The notes under the pieces: generated by a model
What the model was told of the DNA's origin: nothing
Seen by the model: the letters and a program-made list of their open reading frames with translations, nothing else
Database searches by the model: none
Assembly (NCBI RefSeq): GCF_000737325.1
Contig: NZ_CP011125.1
Span: 4,898,001-4,962,000 of the forward strand
Origin: Sandaracinus amylolyticus
GTDB lineage: Bacteria; Myxococcota_A; Polyangia; Polyangiales; Sandaracinaceae
Reading direction: 5' to 3'
DNA: 64,000 bases
Made by a program: the position numbers and the translations under genes
Part shown: positions 8,799 to 51,742 of the stretch, in pieces
Numbering within the stretch: the stretch's first letter is position 1
Layout of the letters: each line of letters opens with the position of its first letter

Positions 8799-8881
8799 TC
8801 GGAGCGCATCCGCGCGCCCCGACCGCGCATCGCGGGAGCGCCCGGTCGCGTCCCGGCACCTCCGGATCGTCTTCTGGCCGC

Positions 8882-9150
8882 CGGGACGCGATCCGGAGAT
8901 CGCCGGACGCCGTGTCCGGCTGCCGGAACGCCATCCGGAGATCTCGGAACGACGCCCGGGGCGGCCCGAGCGCGCTCCCGCGATCTCCGGACGCCGTTTC
9001 GCGAGGCCGGAACGCGATCCGGAGCTCGAAGAACGGCGCTCCGGCACGTCGAACCGCGGTCCGGAGACCACCGGACGTCACTCGGCGCGCCCAGAACGCG
9101 ATCCGGAGCGCGCCGCGAGCACTTCCCGGCACGTCCGAGCTCCTCCGAGC
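8882..9150. repeat. Degenerate 42-bp tandem repeat between convergent genes
   Basis: The 378-base gap between coaBC and the YciO gene has no convincing gene. It holds a tandem repeat with exact 42-base spacing: the core ATCCGGAG (or close variants) recurs at 8891, 8933, 8975 (weak), 9017, 9059, 9101 and weakly at 9143, usually preceded by GGAACGCG. The period is a multiple of three, so both strands stay open in several frames as 14-residue repeats. Repetition, rather than a real gene, explains those open frames. Confidence 0.75.
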
Positions 9151-9176
9151 CGAGCGCGGCCGTCCGCCGCGCGAGC

Positions 9177-9779
9177 TCAGAGCGCGTCGACGGGGCCGGC
9201 GCCCTCGCGCACCACGACGATGTCGCGCCCGGTGAGGTCGAGCACCGTCGACGGCGTGAGCCCCCCGAACCCGCCGTCGAGGATCAGATCGATCCCCGGG
9301 AACGTCTCGTCGATCTCCGCGGGATCGATCAGCGGCTGACCTTCGATCGCCGCGGTGGTGCTCACGATCGGATTGCCGAGCGCGCGCACGAGCGCGAGCG
9401 CGACCTCGTCGTGCGGCACGCGGATGCCGACCGTCTTGCGCTTCATCTGGAGGATGCGCGGCACCTCGCGCGTCGCCTCGAGGATGAAGCAGTACGGGCC
9501 GGGCGTGAGCCGCCGCATCAGGCGATACGTGCGGTCGTCGACGATCGCGTACTTCGCGAGGTCTCCGAGATCGGGGCAGATGAACGCGAGCGGCTGATCG
9601 GGCTTCATCCGCTTCATGCGGTAGATGCGCTCGACCGCCTTCTTGCTCGTGATGCTGCACCCGAGCCCGTACACCGTGTCGGTCGGGTACGCGAGCACGC
9701 CGTCGTCGCGCAGGATCGAGACGGCGCGCTCGATCTTGCGCGGCTCGGGGTGCTGCCGGTTGATCTCGAGGCGCGGCAT
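9177..9779 (-). CDS. YrdC/Sua5-domain protein, YciO type
   Basis: 200 aa, a single YrdC-like domain with no C-terminal Sua5 extension. The nucleotide-binding start is DGVLAYPTDTVYGLGC (about 26-41), followed by the basic KRMKPDQPLAFIC strand, LTPGPYCFIL, and IVSTTAA with IRVPHDE before it. The family includes TsaC/Sua5, which makes threonylcarbamoyl-AMP for the t6A tRNA modification. The extended 'MKRMKPDQPLAF' form is closer to YciO, whose role is less certain. Its ATG overlaps the stop of the upstream macro-like gene (TGATG), so the two are probably translationally coupled. Confidence 0.85.
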   Translation of the reverse strand: MPRLEINRQHPEPRKIERAVSILRDDGVLAYPTDTVYGLGCSITSKKAVERIYRMKRMKPDQPLAFICPDLGDLAKYAIVDDRTYRLMRRLTPGPYCFILEATREVPRILQMKRKTVGIRVPHDEVALALVRALGNPIVSTTAAIEGQPLIDPAEIDETFPGIDLILDGGFGGLTPSTVLDLTGRDIVVVREGAGPVDAL

Positions 9780-41061: not shown

Positions 41062-41103
41062 GCGCGATCGATCGCGCGCGCCGCGCGCCGTGTCGAGTCC
41101 GCA

Positions 41104-41392
41104 CTTTCAACGGCTCGCTGCGCACCCGGCTCCCGTCCGTGCCCGAGGCGGGCACTCCCGTCCGCCGGCTGCTTCGCGAGCACTCCTGTCGAGCCCGCAT
41201 TTCAACGGCTCGCTGCGCACCCGGCTCCCGTCCGTGCCCGTCACGGGCACTCCCGTCCGCCGGGTCGCTTCGCGAGCACTCCTGTCGAGCCCGCATTTCA
41301 ACGGCTCGCTGCGCACCCGGCTCCCGTCCGTGCCCGGGCACTCCCGTCCGCCGAGTGCTTCGCGAGCACTCCTGTCGAGCCCGCAATCCGGA
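41104..41392. repeat. Three-unit 95-bp tandem array of a dispersed repeat
   Basis: Three near-identical units with TTCAACGGCTCGCTGCGCAC starting at 41106, 41201 and 41297. Each runs on through CCCGTCCGTGCCCG, a GGGCACTCCCGTCCGCC segment and GCTTCGCGAGCACTCCTGTC. In units 1 and 2 the middle forms a hairpin (GTGCCCG-TCA-CGGGCAC in unit 2); unit 3 has lost one arm. A diverged solo copy lies at 27926-27992. The 338-base gap 41062-41399 holds only this array and no gene. Confidence 0.85.
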
Positions 41393-46359: not shown

Positions 46360-48057
46360 ATGAGCATCGCACCGGCGCCGCCGGTCGCGACGATCGCCGA
46401 CGACGACGCGATCACGCAGCGACGCATCCCGTGGCTCGTCGGAGGGCGCCTGGTCGTCGCGACGGTGCTGCTCGGGGGCACGGTCGCGCTCGGCGGCGCC
46501 GACCTCGGCGCGTCGGCGCTGACGTGGCTCGTGGTCGCCGTCTACGCGACGTCGCTCGGCTCGCTGCTGTGGATGCAGTGGCGGCGCAGCGTGCGCGGGC
46601 TCGTCACCGCGCAGCTCGCGGTCGACCTCGCGATCGCGAGCGCGCTCGTGTGGCTCACCGGCGGCGCGGTGAGCTCGTTCAGCTTCCTCTACGGCGTCGT
46701 GATCCTGCTCTCCGCGCTGGTCGCCGGGCCGAGCCAGGTCGCCGCGACGGCGGGCCTCGCGGGCGTGCTCTACGTGTCGATCGGCATCGCGCTGCCGACG
46801 GGATGGCTTCCCGATCCCAGCGGGGCGATGGCGACGCTCGCGCCCACCGAGCTCAGCATCGCGCTGCTGCGCAACGTGGTCGGGCTCTTCCTCGTGGGGC
46901 TGCTCGCGAACGTGCTGAGCGCGCGCCTGCGCCGCACCGGCGGCGAGCTGCGGATCGCGACCGCGAGCGCCGCGGAGTACGCGCGGCTCACCGAGGACAT
47001 CGTGCGCTCGCTCGGCTCGGGGCTGATCACGACGGATCTCGATGGGCGCATCCGATCGATCAACGACGCGGGCGCGCGCATCCTCGGGACCAGCACGGAC
47101 GCGCTGGTCGGCACGCCGGTCGCCGAGATCCTGCCGCGCATCTCCGCGACGCCGATGAGCTCGCCGGCTCGTCAGGGCGAGCGCGGCGAGTCGTTCGCGA
47201 CGCGCCCCGACGGGAGCGAGCTGCCCGTGGGCTTCACGCGCACGCCGCTCGTCGGCGCCGACGGAACGCAGCACGGGACGCTCGTGCTCTTCCAGGACCT
47301 CACCGAGATCGCGCAGCTGCGCGCGAAGGCCGAGAAGGCGGAGCGTCTCGCGGTGCTCGGGCAGCTCGCGGCCGGGCTCGCGCACGAGATCCGGAACCCG
47401 CTGGGATCGATCTCGGGATCGGTCGAGCTGGTGCGCGACGCGCAGGAGCTCGGTGAGGAGGATCGCCGGCTGCTCGGCATGGTGCTCGGGGAGGTCGAGC
47501 GCCTGAACGAGCTGGTGACGACGATGCTCGACGTCGGAAGGCCGGTGACGCCGGATCGCATCGACGTCGATCTGCGCTCGCTCGCGGGCGAGGTGATCGA
47601 GGTCGCGCGGCGCGGGCCGACGCGCAGCGCGGGCGTCGAGGTGCGGCTCGAGGCGGACGAGGACGTGCACGCGCACGCGGACCCGGCGCAGCTGCGTCAG
47701 GTGCTGTGGAACCTCGTGAAGAACGCGATGCAGTACTCGCCGCGCGGCGCGGTGGTGACGGTGCGGGTGCGCGCGCTGGAGGACGGCTCGGTCTCGCTGG
47801 AGGTCGAGGACCGAGGCGCGGGGATCGCGGCGGAGGACCTCGAGAAGGTCTTCGATATGTTCTTCACGAAGCGCCGCCACGGCGTGGGGCTGGGGCTCGC
47901 GCTGGTGAAGCAGATCGTCGAGGCGCACGGCGGGCAGGTGCGCGTCGAGAGCCGACCCGGCGCGGGCGCGCGCTTCCGCGTGGTGCTGCCGCGACGTGGC
48001 GCGCGGACGAGCGGGAGCCACGGCGCGATCGAGCAGCCGAGCGCGCTCGAAGCCTGA
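46360..48057 (+). CDS. pilS: PilS-like sensor histidine kinase
   Basis: 565 aa. About six N-terminal membrane helices (residues 25-190), the layout of PilS, which senses pilin in the membrane. A PAS domain follows (about 210-320, GSGLITTDLDGRIRSINDAG), then HisKA with LAHEIRNPLGS (phospho-acceptor H342), and HATPase with NLVKNAMQYSP, VEDRGAGI and GVGLGLALVKQIVE. Its location after pilT-pilC supports the name. The usual NtrC-type partner pilR does not follow; the next gene is a lipase on the other strand. Confidence 0.88.
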   Translation: MSIAPAPPVATIADDDAITQRRIPWLVGGRLVVATVLLGGTVALGGADLGASALTWLVVAVYATSLGSLLWMQWRRSVRGLVTAQLAVDLAIASALVWLTGGAVSSFSFLYGVVILLSALVAGPSQVAATAGLAGVLYVSIGIALPTGWLPDPSGAMATLAPTELSIALLRNVVGLFLVGLLANVLSARLRRTGGELRIATASAAEYARLTEDIVRSLGSGLITTDLDGRIRSINDAGARILGTSTDALVGTPVAEILPRISATPMSSPARQGERGESFATRPDGSELPVGFTRTPLVGADGTQHGTLVLFQDLTEIAQLRAKAEKAERLAVLGQLAAGLAHEIRNPLGSISGSVELVRDAQELGEEDRRLLGMVLGEVERLNELVTTMLDVGRPVTPDRIDVDLRSLAGEVIEVARRGPTRSAGVEVRLEADEDVHAHADPAQLRQVLWNLVKNAMQYSPRGAVVTVRVRALEDGSVSLEVEDRGAGIAAEDLEKVFDMFFTKRRHGVGLGLALVKQIVEAHGGQVRVESRPGAGARFRVVLPRRGARTSGSHGAIEQPSALEA

Positions 48058-48083: not shown

Positions 48084-48839
48084 TCAGCGCGTCAGGCCGT
48101 CGTGCACGTGCGCGAAGGCGCGCGGCTCGAAGAGCATCTCGTTGTGACCGACGTCGTCGAGCCAGTGGATGGTCGCGTCGTCGATCGACGCGGCGCTCTC
48201 GGGCGGTGTGACCATGCGATCGAGGCCGGCGACGACGGCGGTGTGGAGGACGCGCGAGGCGCGCGCGCGGCCTTCGCGGAGCATGCGGATGACGTGGCTG
48301 TCGGGGCGGATCGCCTCGAGCAGCGAGCCCGCGACGAGCGGCCCCATCGCGACGCGCGCGGCGCGGGTACCGGCGTGGGGGCTCGCGAGCGTGACGAGGC
48401 GATCGACGTGCGTCGCGCCGCCGCGCTCTTGGAGATACCAGCGCGCGACGATGCCGCCGAGCGAGTGCCCGACGATGTCGACGCGGCGTCCTTCGGCGAC
48501 GCGATCGACGATGGAGGCGAGGCGATCGACGGCGCGGTCGAAGCGCTCGAGCGGGCCGTAGGTGATGTCGATCGTGCCGACGGGCGCGCGCTGCTCGACG
48601 AAGGCGCGCATGGGATCGAACACGGGCCCCGCGGCCATGAAGCCGTGGACGAAGATGACGACGCGCTCGCCGGGGATCGTGGGTGTCGCGCGGTTGCGGG
48701 CGGCGGCGATGAGCTGGCCTTGCCGCGCGACGGCGCGCACCTCGCGGCCGAGCTCGACGGCGTGGCTGAGGAGGGAGCGGGCCGCGGCGGGGGGCATTTG
48801 GAGGAAGCGTAGCGCGTGGCGGGTAGGAAGGCCGAGCAC
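48084..48839 (-). CDS. Lipase-like alpha/beta hydrolase
   Basis: 251 aa from a GTG at 48839; an ATG at 48797 would give 237 aa, and neither has a convincing Shine-Dalgarno. The fold is a triacylglycerol-lipase/PGAP1-like hydrolase with VVIFVHGFMAAG (oxyanion), the nucleophile elbow DIVGHSLGGIVARW, and probable acid and His residues in LDRMVTPPESA and VGHNEMLF. No signal peptide. The substrate is likely an ester or lipid. It borders the repeat island on its upstream side. Confidence 0.88.
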   Translation of the reverse strand: MLGLPTRHALRFLQMPPAAARSLLSHAVELGREVRAVARQGQLIAAARNRATPTIPGERVVIFVHGFMAAGPVFDPMRAFVEQRAPVGTIDITYGPLERFDRAVDRLASIVDRVAEGRRVDIVGHSLGGIVARWYLQERGGATHVDRLVTLASPHAGTRAARVAMGPLVAGSLLEAIRPDSHVIRMLREGRARASRVLHTAVVAGLDRMVTPPESAASIDDATIHWLDDVGHNEMLFEPRAFAHVHDGLTR

Positions 48840-48968: not shown

Positions 48969-49370
48969 ACCACCCTCCGGGATGGTCCAACCGCAACGCT
49001 TACGGATCTACCACCCTCCGGGATGGTCCAACCGCAACGCTCACGGATCTACCACCCTCCGGGATGGTCCAACCGCAACGCTTACGGATCTCACCACCCT
49101 CCGGGATGGTCCAACCGCAACCTTACGGATCCGACCACCCTCCGGGATGGTCCAACCCGTAACCTTACGGATCCGACAGCTCCACCAAGCTCTCGATCCG
49201 CAACCTTACGGATCCAACAGCTTCACCAAGCTCTCGATCCGTAACCTTACGGATCCAACAGCTTTACCAAGCTCTCGACCCGCAACCTTACGGATCCACA
49301 GCTTCACCAAGCTCTCGACCCGCAACCTTACGGATCCGACAGCTTCACCAAGCTCCCGATCCGCAAGGCT
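48969..49370. repeat. Composite ten-unit hairpin repeat array (A x5, B x5)
   Basis: Ten units of 40-42 bases. Five A units start with ACCACCCTCCGGGATGGT (48969, 49010, 49051, 49093, 49134); five B units start with AGCTTCACCAAGCT (49178, 49219, 49260, 49300, 49341). Both unit types end in the same second half, CCGCAACCTTACGGATC or a close variant. Each half is a hairpin: A pairs ACCA.CC with GG.TGGT, B pairs AGCTT with AAGCT, and the shared half pairs CCGTAA with TTACGG in its best copies. No unique spacers exist, so this is not CRISPR. Confidence 0.9.
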
Positions 49371-49540
49371 CCACATGTGCTGCCCGCTCGCCCCGTGCGT
49401 GCGCCAGAAGCGCGACGGCTGTCCCGGCGGCGCTCAGTCGCAGTTGGGCCCGCAGAGCACGCCGCGCGACGGCACCGACGACGGGCTCTTCGCAGAATTC
49501 GACGCGCATGTTTGCTCCAGTCCGACGGAGAGCGTTCGGC

Positions 49541-49970
49541 GCGGCCCCGCGCTTCGCGCGTGTCCTCGCCTCCCCGCGACAGCACCGGCGCGGCCCCGCG
49601 CTTCGCGCGTGTCCTCGCCTCCCCGAACACCACCGGCGCGGCCCCGCGTTCCGCGCGTGTCCTCGCCTTCCCACGACACCACCGGCGCGGCCCCGCGCTT
49701 CGCGCGTGTCCTGCCTCCCCGAACACCACCGGCGCGAACCCGCGCTCCGCGCGTGTCCTCGCCTTCCCACGACACCACCGGCGCGGCCCCGCGCTTCGCG
49801 CGTGTCCTCGCCTCCCCGAACACCACCGGCGTGAACCCGCGCTCCGCGCGTGTCCTCGCCTCCCCGCGACACCACCGGCGCGGCCCCGCGCTTCGCGCGT
49901 GTCCTCGCCTCCCCGCGACACCACCGGCGCGGCCCCGCGCTCCGCGCGTGTCCTCGCCTGCGACTATGAA
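49541..49970. repeat. Nine-unit 48-bp tandem repeat
   Basis: Units of 47-49 bases begin at 49541, 49590, 49638, 49687, 49734, 49783, 49831, 49880 and 49929. Each reads approximately GCGGCCCCGCGCTTCGCGCG then TGTCCTCGCCTCCCCG and CACCACCGGC, with a CGCG-CTT-CGCG hairpin. Two alternating subtypes differ in GCGGCC versus GCGAAC and GAACAC versus CACGAC or CGCGAC. Length changes of one base break any reading frame, arguing against a repeat protein. 49371-49540, between the two arrays, holds no recognisable feature. Confidence 0.88.
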
Positions 49971-50267
49971 GTGGCCTGCCCGTCAACGGCACACCGCTGC
50001 CTGCGAGCTCGGTCTCCTCGAGCCGCTCTGCTTCGATCACGTTCCGGTCTCCGATCGCCGCGCGCTGCTGCATTCGACTATTCGCGCTCTGGTGGCGCAG
50101 GAGGGGATCCGCGGGCGAGCCGCATTCATAAGCAACGAGTTGCAGACAGGGTCGCCCCTGCTGGCTCATCGCACTCGTCGCGGTCATCGCCTTTGGAGCG
50201 CCGCTGCGAACCGAAGTTCGGAACGGACTCTGTTCGGAGCTCTCGGTCGAGAGCTCGAAATCGTTCT

Positions 50268-51298
50268 TCAGCTCTCGTCGGACGCTCTGGCCTCCGACGC
50301 TCGCGACGGGTCGTACGGCCTCTTCGCCTTCCACATCGCGTAGAGCACGTTCGTCATCTTCCTCGCGAGCGCGATGCGTTTGCCGCGCTTGTCCTCGAGC
50401 GACGCGCCCAGAGCACGATCGGGTCGTTCGGCCGCACTCGCCGGAGCGTCCACGCGCTCTGCACCATCTGCGAGCGCAGCTGCTTCGGTCCCGCTTTGAT
50501 CGTCGAGGTGCGCACGACTTTGCCGCCCGTCGTCGCTTCGCCAGGCACCAGGCCCAGATAGCTCGCGAGCTGCTCGCCCGATTCGAACCGCGACACGTCG
50601 TCGACGTGCGCCGCGAACATCGTCGCTGCGATCGCGCCGATCCCCGGCATCGTCATCAGCAGCTTCGAAATCGGGTCCTGCTCCGCGAGCTGCTCGAGCT
50701 CTTCGTCGAGCTTGTGGATCTGCTCCGTCAGGCTCTCGTAACTGGTCAGCAGAACCTCGAGCTCCATCGGCAGCCCACCGACGTGGTCGAGCGCCAGACG
50801 CCTGACCGCCTCGGGGAACTTCGGCGATGACGCTCGGCTCTCGATGTTCAGGAGCTGCCCTCGCAGCCACGTCTTGATGAAGAGCGAGAGCTGCGTCCGC
50901 GATTTCACGAGCACCGCTCTGGCGGACACCAGCTGCTTGCGCGATCGCGCGACGTCGGTCCTCAGATGCACGCTCGGGAGCTCCTCGCTGCGCACCGACG
51001 CACGCGCGAGGACTTCCGCGTCGCGGTCGTCCGTCTTGATGCCGCGCGCTCCGACCCCGAGCGCACGCACGAGCTGACCGGGGACGACGACCGTCTCGTG
51101 ATTCGCCGCCTGCGACGCTCGTGCAATCGCGGGGCTCTGCGTGCACGCCTCCATCACGACGCGACTGCGCGGCAGTCTCCGCAGCCAGTCCGGCAGGTCT
51201 CTCGTCGGCACTTGGAGCCGCGCGGTCACCTGACCGCTCGCTGCCATCCTCACGACGTGCGTTCGCTTCGCGCCCAGATCGAGCCCAACATGCTCCAC
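50268..51298 (-). pseudogene. IS110-family transposase, frameshifted near the 3' end
   Basis: GTG start at 51298 with GGAGGAG upstream. The DEDD nuclease half shows GLDLGAKRTHVVRM, VVMEACTQS and IKTDDRDAEVLA; the C-terminal Tnp_20 half shows LMTMPGIGAIAATMFAAHV, YLGLVPGEATTGGK and STIKAGPKQLR. At about 50405-50412 the frame ends in unrelated residues and a stop at 50354. The expected tail (EDKRGKRIALARKMTNVLYA, then MWKAKRPYD) continues in another frame to 50268. A single-base deletion explains this. Sequencing error or programmed frameshifting are alternatives, but the site lacks a slippery sequence. Confidence 0.8.
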
Positions 51299-51384
51299 GG
51301 CCGGTCTCCTCCTCTGCGGCCGACAGGACCGCGCACTCATTTGTGGCGAGCGAAAGCCCGACCACGCACGCGAGGAGACCGGCC
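51299..51384 (-). ncRNA. Candidate bridge-RNA region of the IS110 element
   Basis: A perfect 13-base inverted repeat (GGCCGGTCTCCTC at 51299-51311, its complement at 51372-51384) encloses a 60-base loop directly upstream of the transposase start. IS110 elements encode a structured bridge RNA in this non-coding region that pairs with target and donor DNA. The stem also covers the transposase Shine-Dalgarno. RNA limits and guide loops cannot be set without alignment. Confidence 0.4.
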
Positions 51385-51560
51385 CCTCTCACGACGAACC
51401 GTCGCGTGCTCATCCAGCGCCAGGGCGAGGGCAGGTGGACCGCCACTTCATCCCTTCTAAGCAGAGCCCGGATCGCGAGCGCCTGGGCCGCGGCGAAGCG
51501 CGGACCCGTCGCGAGCCATCTCACCCGAACCGAGCGAGGCGGCAGAACCGCGGTGCCGGG

Positions 51561-51742
51561 CGCGAGGGGGTGGGTCCGACGCCCCCGTGCGACGGGGGCT
51601 CGCCGAGGCCGACCACAGACTGATCGAAGCGTCGCGGCAGAGCGCGAAGCGCGCGCCGCGACGCGACCACGGATTCCCGACGCTCACTGCCTCTCGTACA
51701 GCAGCCCGCGAGCACCCAGGGCGTCGGACCCACCCCCTCGCG
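51561..51742. repeat. 182-bp element bounded by perfect 24-bp inverted repeats
   Basis: The 24 bases at 51561-51584 (CGCGAGGGGGTGGGTCCGAC plus GCCC) recur exactly as the reverse complement at 51719-51742. The 134-base interior contains a perfect 8-base hairpin (GCCCCCGT-GCG-ACGGGGGC, 51581-51599), which shares bases with the left arm, and a perfect 10-base stem (51629-51638 with 51655-51664). It has no gene. It is MITE-like or a structured RNA lying 22 bases after the stop of the epimerase gene. Confidence 0.8.

Follow-up and report, generated by a model that had tools for sequence, protein, structure and literature searches.

The window, the whole stretch of 64,000 nucleotides that was analysed, belongs to the genome of Sandaracinus amylolyticus (G000), which consists of one contig of 10,327,335 bases. 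The tandem array in focus lies in the window between a lipase-like gene and a gene remnant (Table 1). In the congener G002 the counterpart of the remnant is, as read by eye, a long, uninterrupted gene bordering the orthologous array. The neighbours of the focal array were a hydrolase, a histidine kinase, a type II secretion F protein and an IS110 transposase, and no ParA/ParB operon was among the neighbours at this locus. The core of the 48/97-bp array is similar to that of a period-48 array at locus L051 (5571-5899). No flank match to G002 (orthologous stretch L099) was obtained for window positions 49177-51711. Rfam covariance models gave zero matches at E ≤ 1 between positions 47900 and 51600, and neither a terminator-like site nor a sigma-70-type promoter was found at the focal locus.

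Table 1 Coordinates of the focal array, its surroundings and the second 42-bp-period array in the window
Feature	Position in window	Strand	Remarks
Lipase-like (alpha/beta hydrolase) gene	48084-48839	-	Focal array upstream of the gene, likewise in G002
Block A	48969-49176		Five units (41-43 bp) of alternating palindromes A and S
S palindromes, units 1-3	48991-49087		Loop CGC (or CGC with one change), then GATCT
S palindromes, units 4-9	49115-49333		Loop CC, then GATCC
Block B	49177-49366		Five units (40-41 bp) of alternating palindromes B and S; end approximate
Gene remnant	49436-49510	-	MRVEFCEEPVV (start) and GVLCGPNCD (end) retained without the middle; read by eye
Separate tandem array of 48/97-bp units	49537-49959		CGCGCTTCGCGCG palindromes; ~170 bp from focal array
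IS110-type transposase gene	50354-51340		PF02371, PF01548; ~1 kb from focal array
Second 42-bp-period intergenic array	8868-9115		Sequence unrelated to focal array

The focal array consists of ten units of 40-43 bp each (48969-49366, end approximate), and the description given in the initial annotation, five units of type A followed by five of type B, was borne out. Palindrome A (ACCACCCTCCGGGATGGT) is present in units 1-5 and palindrome B (AGCTYYACCAAGCT) in units 6-10, and both alternate with palindrome S, CCGYAAC(G)CTYACGG. S had been thought to be common to all ten units; nine complete copies are present (units 1-9, 48991-49333), but the last unit of block B stops inside S, and of the tenth copy only the fragment CCGCAA is found. 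The single switch that had been claimed holds for A and B, which change once, between units 5 and 6, but a further change occurs in S, where the loop CGC and the tail GATCT of units 1-3 give way to CC and GATCC in units 4-9. As the form of S changes before the A/B switch, units 4-5 are hybrid: their A half is that of block A, their S half that of block B. The 19 palindrome centres of the array are spaced at 20.0-21.5 bp throughout. The TRF scores were 348 and 350, and the repeat array is real and far beyond chance.

A coding repeat was rejected, as the focal period of 40-43 bp is no multiple of three, the arrays lie outside predicted genes and genic rows have no peak at 42. A CRISPR array was also rejected, as the units are contiguous and both halves repeat, so that there are no unique spacers between identical repeats.

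Intergenic arrays with a period of 41-43 bp

The genome was sampled with 60 stretches of 20 kb and the window, altogether 1.264 Mb or 12 % of this one genome. Genes were predicted with a home-made hexamer model, and arrays of at least 70 bp were collected with TRF and merged. A period of 41-43 bp was found in 31 of the 54 intergenic tandem arrays compared to 4 of the 128 genic rows, and 25 of the 99 intergenic gaps of at least 300 bp held an array with this period; the counts 31/54 and 25/99 include the window, which was chosen, and three stretches (L048, L073 and L086) which were shifted to take in known arrays. Without these four pieces there were 20 intergenic regions bearing such arrays, called ladders here, in 1.14 Mb, which by proportion corresponds to ~180 per genome. 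The genome probably contains a hundred or more intergenic ladders. A self-match test performed without TRF on 165 gaps of at least 200 bp gave lag 42 in 21 gaps, lag 41 in 7 and lag 43 in 5, with further peaks at lags 21 (6), 63 (4), 84 (16), 105 (4) and 126 (10).

Most ladders are unrelated in sequence to one another, and their common trait is the 21-bp step, often with alternating palindromes. The palindromes of the second 42-bp-period array in the window were not above chance (p = 0.67). A weak preference for gap orientation was seen, ladders being present in 7 of 17 convergent compared to 3 of 30 divergent gaps (p 0.02).

For 39 arrays, 31 of this genome and 8 of relatives, the consensus units were compared to 1,754 background intergenic 42-mers; in a reduced set, 8 of the 31 G000 arrays, picked by hand as related or adjoining, were dropped. 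The best dyad of the consensus units was stronger than that of the background (0.802 vs 0.714). In 16/39 arrays (10/23 in the reduced set) it was joined by a second dyad at a distance of 19.5-21.5 bp, compared to 12 % of the background. In a periodic sequence, symmetry about one centre across the whole unit implies symmetry at the half-unit, and the second dyad therefore amounts to ladders reading alike on both strands. Identity at lag 21 within the unit was raised (0.357 vs 0.306, p 0.0015; p 0.04 in the reduced set). Periodicities of A/T (5.25 and 7 bp) and of purines (10.5 bp) were also above background, several statistics having been tried. The palindromes were not universal, as 18 of the 39 arrays had them at p < 0.05.

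Shared modules and differences between species

Some ladders share modules and swap them half by half, with the spacing kept. The A, S and B modules recur in other arrays in mixed combinations, and the modular unit of two hairpins proposed in the initial annotation is both real and general. A blastn search of the own genome gave further arrays: S-B at 8.118 Mb, one at 1.560 Mb in which X modules precede S-A, and X plus S-A at 5.856 Mb. The S pattern, allowing at most three mismatches, occurred at 10 places in the genome, all within three arrays, while a reversed control pattern gave 0. A 252-bp sequence in 1.8 copies was observed beside an X plus S-A ladder (L073 9057-9518; L026 about 1870-2020), and a relative of it adjoins the corresponding ladder in G002.

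A second set of modules consists of D (TCGATTCTGAAATCGA), E (GGGTGTCAGCGACCC), F (CGAATCTCGGAGATTCG) and G (CTGGATTCGAAATCCAG). D-E-D-E arrays were present at 1.047, 2.308, 4.830 and 5.301 Mb and an F-D-F-D array at 3.609 Mb, and a single array at 3.262 Mb reads F-D-F-D-F-G-F-D-F-G-F-D-F. Partners were exchanged next to a shared module in S-A/S-B, D-E/D-F and F-D/F-G. Of the 37 forward matches of F across the genome, 35 were within five arrays, and of the 28 places with D, 27 were within eight array loci. In the DNA scanned for modules, lone matches made up 22/54 for E and 7/16 for X, both searched with loose patterns, and 3/13 for B, 2/7 for G, 2/65 for D, 2/23 for F, 1/19 for S and 0/24 for A.

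Neighbouring module pairs at most 60 bp apart in this DNA (n = 160, a count that two loci enter twice, L045/L161 and L067/L167) were at 20-22 bp in 116 cases and at 41-43 bp in 42, and partner modules of unequal length keep the register of 20-21 bp. At L066 three units of one kind are followed by three of another with one half constant, and at L041 and L045 one half likewise changes along the array, the other half being constant. The switch at L045 is present also in the orthologous G002 array and thus probably predates the species split.

At the place of the focal array, between the same two genes, G002 has roughly seven S-A units, and B is absent. S-A units are also present in G002 where this genome has the S-B array at 8.118 Mb (the flank matches, and the flanking gene is the same by eye). 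Two loci therefore have a different partner of S in each species, with S itself and the spacing kept. The search of the genome and its relatives for the modules thus gave mixed arrays, and the focal array is neither alone in its genome nor reduced to a single unit in the relative. When the focal array was compared by blastn to 144 genomes including its own, four matched, namely its own, G002 and two weak ones (E near 1e-3). An exact-pattern scan of bacterial contigs, which may omit records of this genome or of one very near, gave the S half in 34 stretches from varied bacteria, at one place each and none in tandem. TRF on these 34 loci (263 kb) gave 14 rows of at least 70 bp, none of them at 41-43 bp in this small sample. 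Covariation was weak among 31 distinct S halves: there were 11 cells changed on both sides compared to 5.5 in shuffles (1/500), and the number of pairs with changes on both sides was reached by 95 of 500 shuffles.

Seven loci were comparable between G000 and G002, and an array was present in both species at six of them (the window, L086, L073, L068, L045 and L082, the last with an array of only about two units). At L051 the ladder is missing from G002 along with a neighbouring gene. The consensus units of the two species differ by few changes (4/41 positions in one L068 array) and the copies within an array are alike, which is the pattern of concerted evolution. At L068 a dispersed repeat of ~200 bp (9000-9218) lies just after two ladders, and about ten further matches to it were seen in G002. 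According to TRF, a period of 41-43 bp was found in 5/14 intergenic arrays of G002, 2/6 of G007 and 1/9 of G037, and in 0/6 of four other genomes of the order, and the stretches of G005 (120 kb) and G004 (40 kb) gave no intergenic arrays. The samples of all these genomes are small and non-random, and that of G002 includes four pieces picked for known arrays.

Origin and possible role of the ladders

We give a probability of roughly 0.4 to the reading in which the focal array is one of many palindrome ladders, renewed by exchange between arrays and by duplication, with helically phased dyads that have a putative role in docking or supercoiling. A clear ladder is a head-to-tail array in which two palindromes of 14-20 bp alternate, and as the centres are 20-21 bp apart, i.e. 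two turns of B-DNA, the unit is about 42 bp. The switch from A to B most likely goes back to an exchange, by way of the shared S half, between an S-A array and one with S-B units, after which the new units would have multiplied by local tandem duplication. Such an exchange through S is expected to leave a junction like the hybrid units 4-5, in which A already stands next to the block B version of S. Exchange between arrays that share modules, together with local duplication of the new unit, suffices to account for the block-wise growth. The ladder reading draws on the even spacing of the 19 centres, the excess of 41-43-bp periods in intergenic DNA, the lag peaks at multiples of 21, the half-unit dyads, the strict alternation with swapped partners, the recurrent block switches, the arrays kept in G002 at 6 of 7 loci, the equal folding of both strands over the 39 arrays and the negative Rfam, terminator and sigma-70 scans of the focal locus.

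The 21-bp step would place the dyads on one face of the helix, where their probable role is that of stacked docking sites for a putative dimeric or structure-reading chromosomal protein. Alternatively, they may act as a series of extrudable dyads buffering supercoiling between genes. The dyads would in both roles be elements of the DNA rather than RNA hairpins of one transcript. The ladders have no single sequence in common, which fits poorly with a protein that reads sequence. The non-universal palindromes, the weak covariation of S, the folding bias of the focal minus strand described below and the weak orientation preference were also counted against the ladder reading. It is doubtful that the ~180 intergenic ladders constitute a chromosomal architecture system of the genus or family, i.e. 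swappable 21-bp palindromic modules with two-turn phasing and a putative structure-recognising reader which tolerates almost any palindrome, geometry being inherited over sequence.

It is possible, as a tentative alternative, that the ladders are a functionless by-product: slippage and template switching at palindromes would both perfect the palindromes and duplicate the units, under a mutational ruler of ~21 bp particular to the lineage. The fast turnover and concerted change, the absence of a conserved sequence, the presence of ladders in every gene context and the modest strength of the palindromes all agree with such a neutral origin. However, the places of the ladders are kept between species at 6 of 7 loci, the register of 20-21 bp is held by partner modules of different length, the small sample of 14 TRF rows from the 34 loci of unrelated bacteria had none at 41-43 bp, and we know of no process with a 42-bp step. 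A quarter of the sampled long intergenic gaps in a 10-Mb genome contain arrays of constrained geometry and unconstrained sequence. If this geometry is functional, it would represent a chromosomal code of spacing and symmetry, and if it is not, the mutational process of the lineage would use a ruler of 21 bp, likewise unexplained.

The arrays could also act at the RNA level, as tandem hairpins in untranslated regions which stabilise, terminate or process transcripts, and the folding of the focal array is consistent with this. Its minus strand, which is sense for the lipase gene, folded at -237.6 kcal/mol compared to -141.9 kcal/mol for the plus strand (z -4.9 vs -3.3 against shuffled units), the hairpins have short loops, and in 12 of the 39 arrays one or both strands had z < -2. 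Over the 39 arrays, however, the strands were equal in folding beyond composition (mean z -1.27 and -1.33), showing no general strand preference, and no terminator-like site is present at the focal locus. The related S-B array at 8.118 Mb has the orientation of the focal array and is flanked by plus-strand genes, and its better-folding strand is thus antisense there. RNA has no need of a helical register such as a step of two turns of B-DNA, and we consider an RNA element unlikely. The DNA-level reading is therefore favoured with modest confidence, the neutral mutational ruler being a close second.

Repeated insertion of mobile hairpins, suggested in the initial annotation and here taken as non-autonomous palindromes of the REPIN/BIME type moved by a transposase, would fit the related modules at loci megabases apart, the mosaic structure, the Y1-transposase family in 22/38 genomes of the wider group and the IS110-type gene near the focal array, but it is very unlikely given that PF01797, the RAYT-type (Y1) transposase, had no match in this genome or its congeners G001 and G002, that F, D and S are almost never solitary (35/37, 27/28 and 10/10 in arrays), that no module is common to most ladders and that the sole ladder missing from G002 is missing together with a neighbouring gene.

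Comparison with known repeat systems

REP and BIME elements, according to a published account (PMC2817692), are short extragenic palindromes with regular spacing, hybrid mosaic arrays and fast turnover, in which palindromy outlasts sequence. The ladders are similarly extragenic, palindromic and mosaic, with composite arrays at regular spacing, as in REP, BIME and REPIN. BIMEs contain one or few REP sequences in alternating orientation and have a cognate RAYT, whereas the ladders contain many unrelated modules, with two different palindromes alternating. The ladders also differ by their fixed step of 20-21 bp, the RAYT that was not found and the near absence of solitary copies; a high copy number of one sequence, with solitary or doublet copies besides clusters, is a feature of REP/BIME that they do not have. 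The ladders resemble REP/BIME and are filed as a variant of mosaic palindromic repeats.

The BOX elements of Streptococcus pneumoniae are described as modular, with a variable number of tandem boxB modules and predicted stem-loops, and the same boxB occurs with different partners in S. suis (PMC3049150). Tandem modules with changing partners are found in the ladders too. BOX has conserved end modules, boxA and boxC, and one family sequence, whereas no conserved ends were seen when those of the ladders were inspected by eye.

Each repeat of sopC, the partition site of the F plasmid, holds an inverted repeat bound by SopB, and in plasmid replication iterons the repeats are about two helical turns apart for binding on the same face. 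Unlike the ladders, iterons are not known as palindromic alternating pairs or as elements dispersed over a chromosome. The sopC site has twelve tandem repeats of 43 bp (PMC9178275), and the period of the ladders is nearly the same. However, sopC is one site with one sequence and one cognate ParB, whereas the ladders have many loci and many sequences.

Searched by terms, the S. amylolyticus genome paper (PMC5010890) gave no mention of tandem, transposition or intergenic elements, and repeats appeared there only as CRISPR. In a literature search by terms, no paper combining tandem repeats, hairpins, intergenic location and myxobacteria was found among the texts as far as these were accessible.

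A family of 84-96-bp tandem repeats with the common sequence TCGGCTCGCC...GAGCACTCC was also observed, with 2-5 copies per site and mostly within ~60 bp of a gene. Its sites are in the window (41091-41385) and at L045 (8350-8760), L053 (8121-8288), L066 (19109-19286), L075 (18516-18692), L077 (15389-15589) and L082 (6103-6381).
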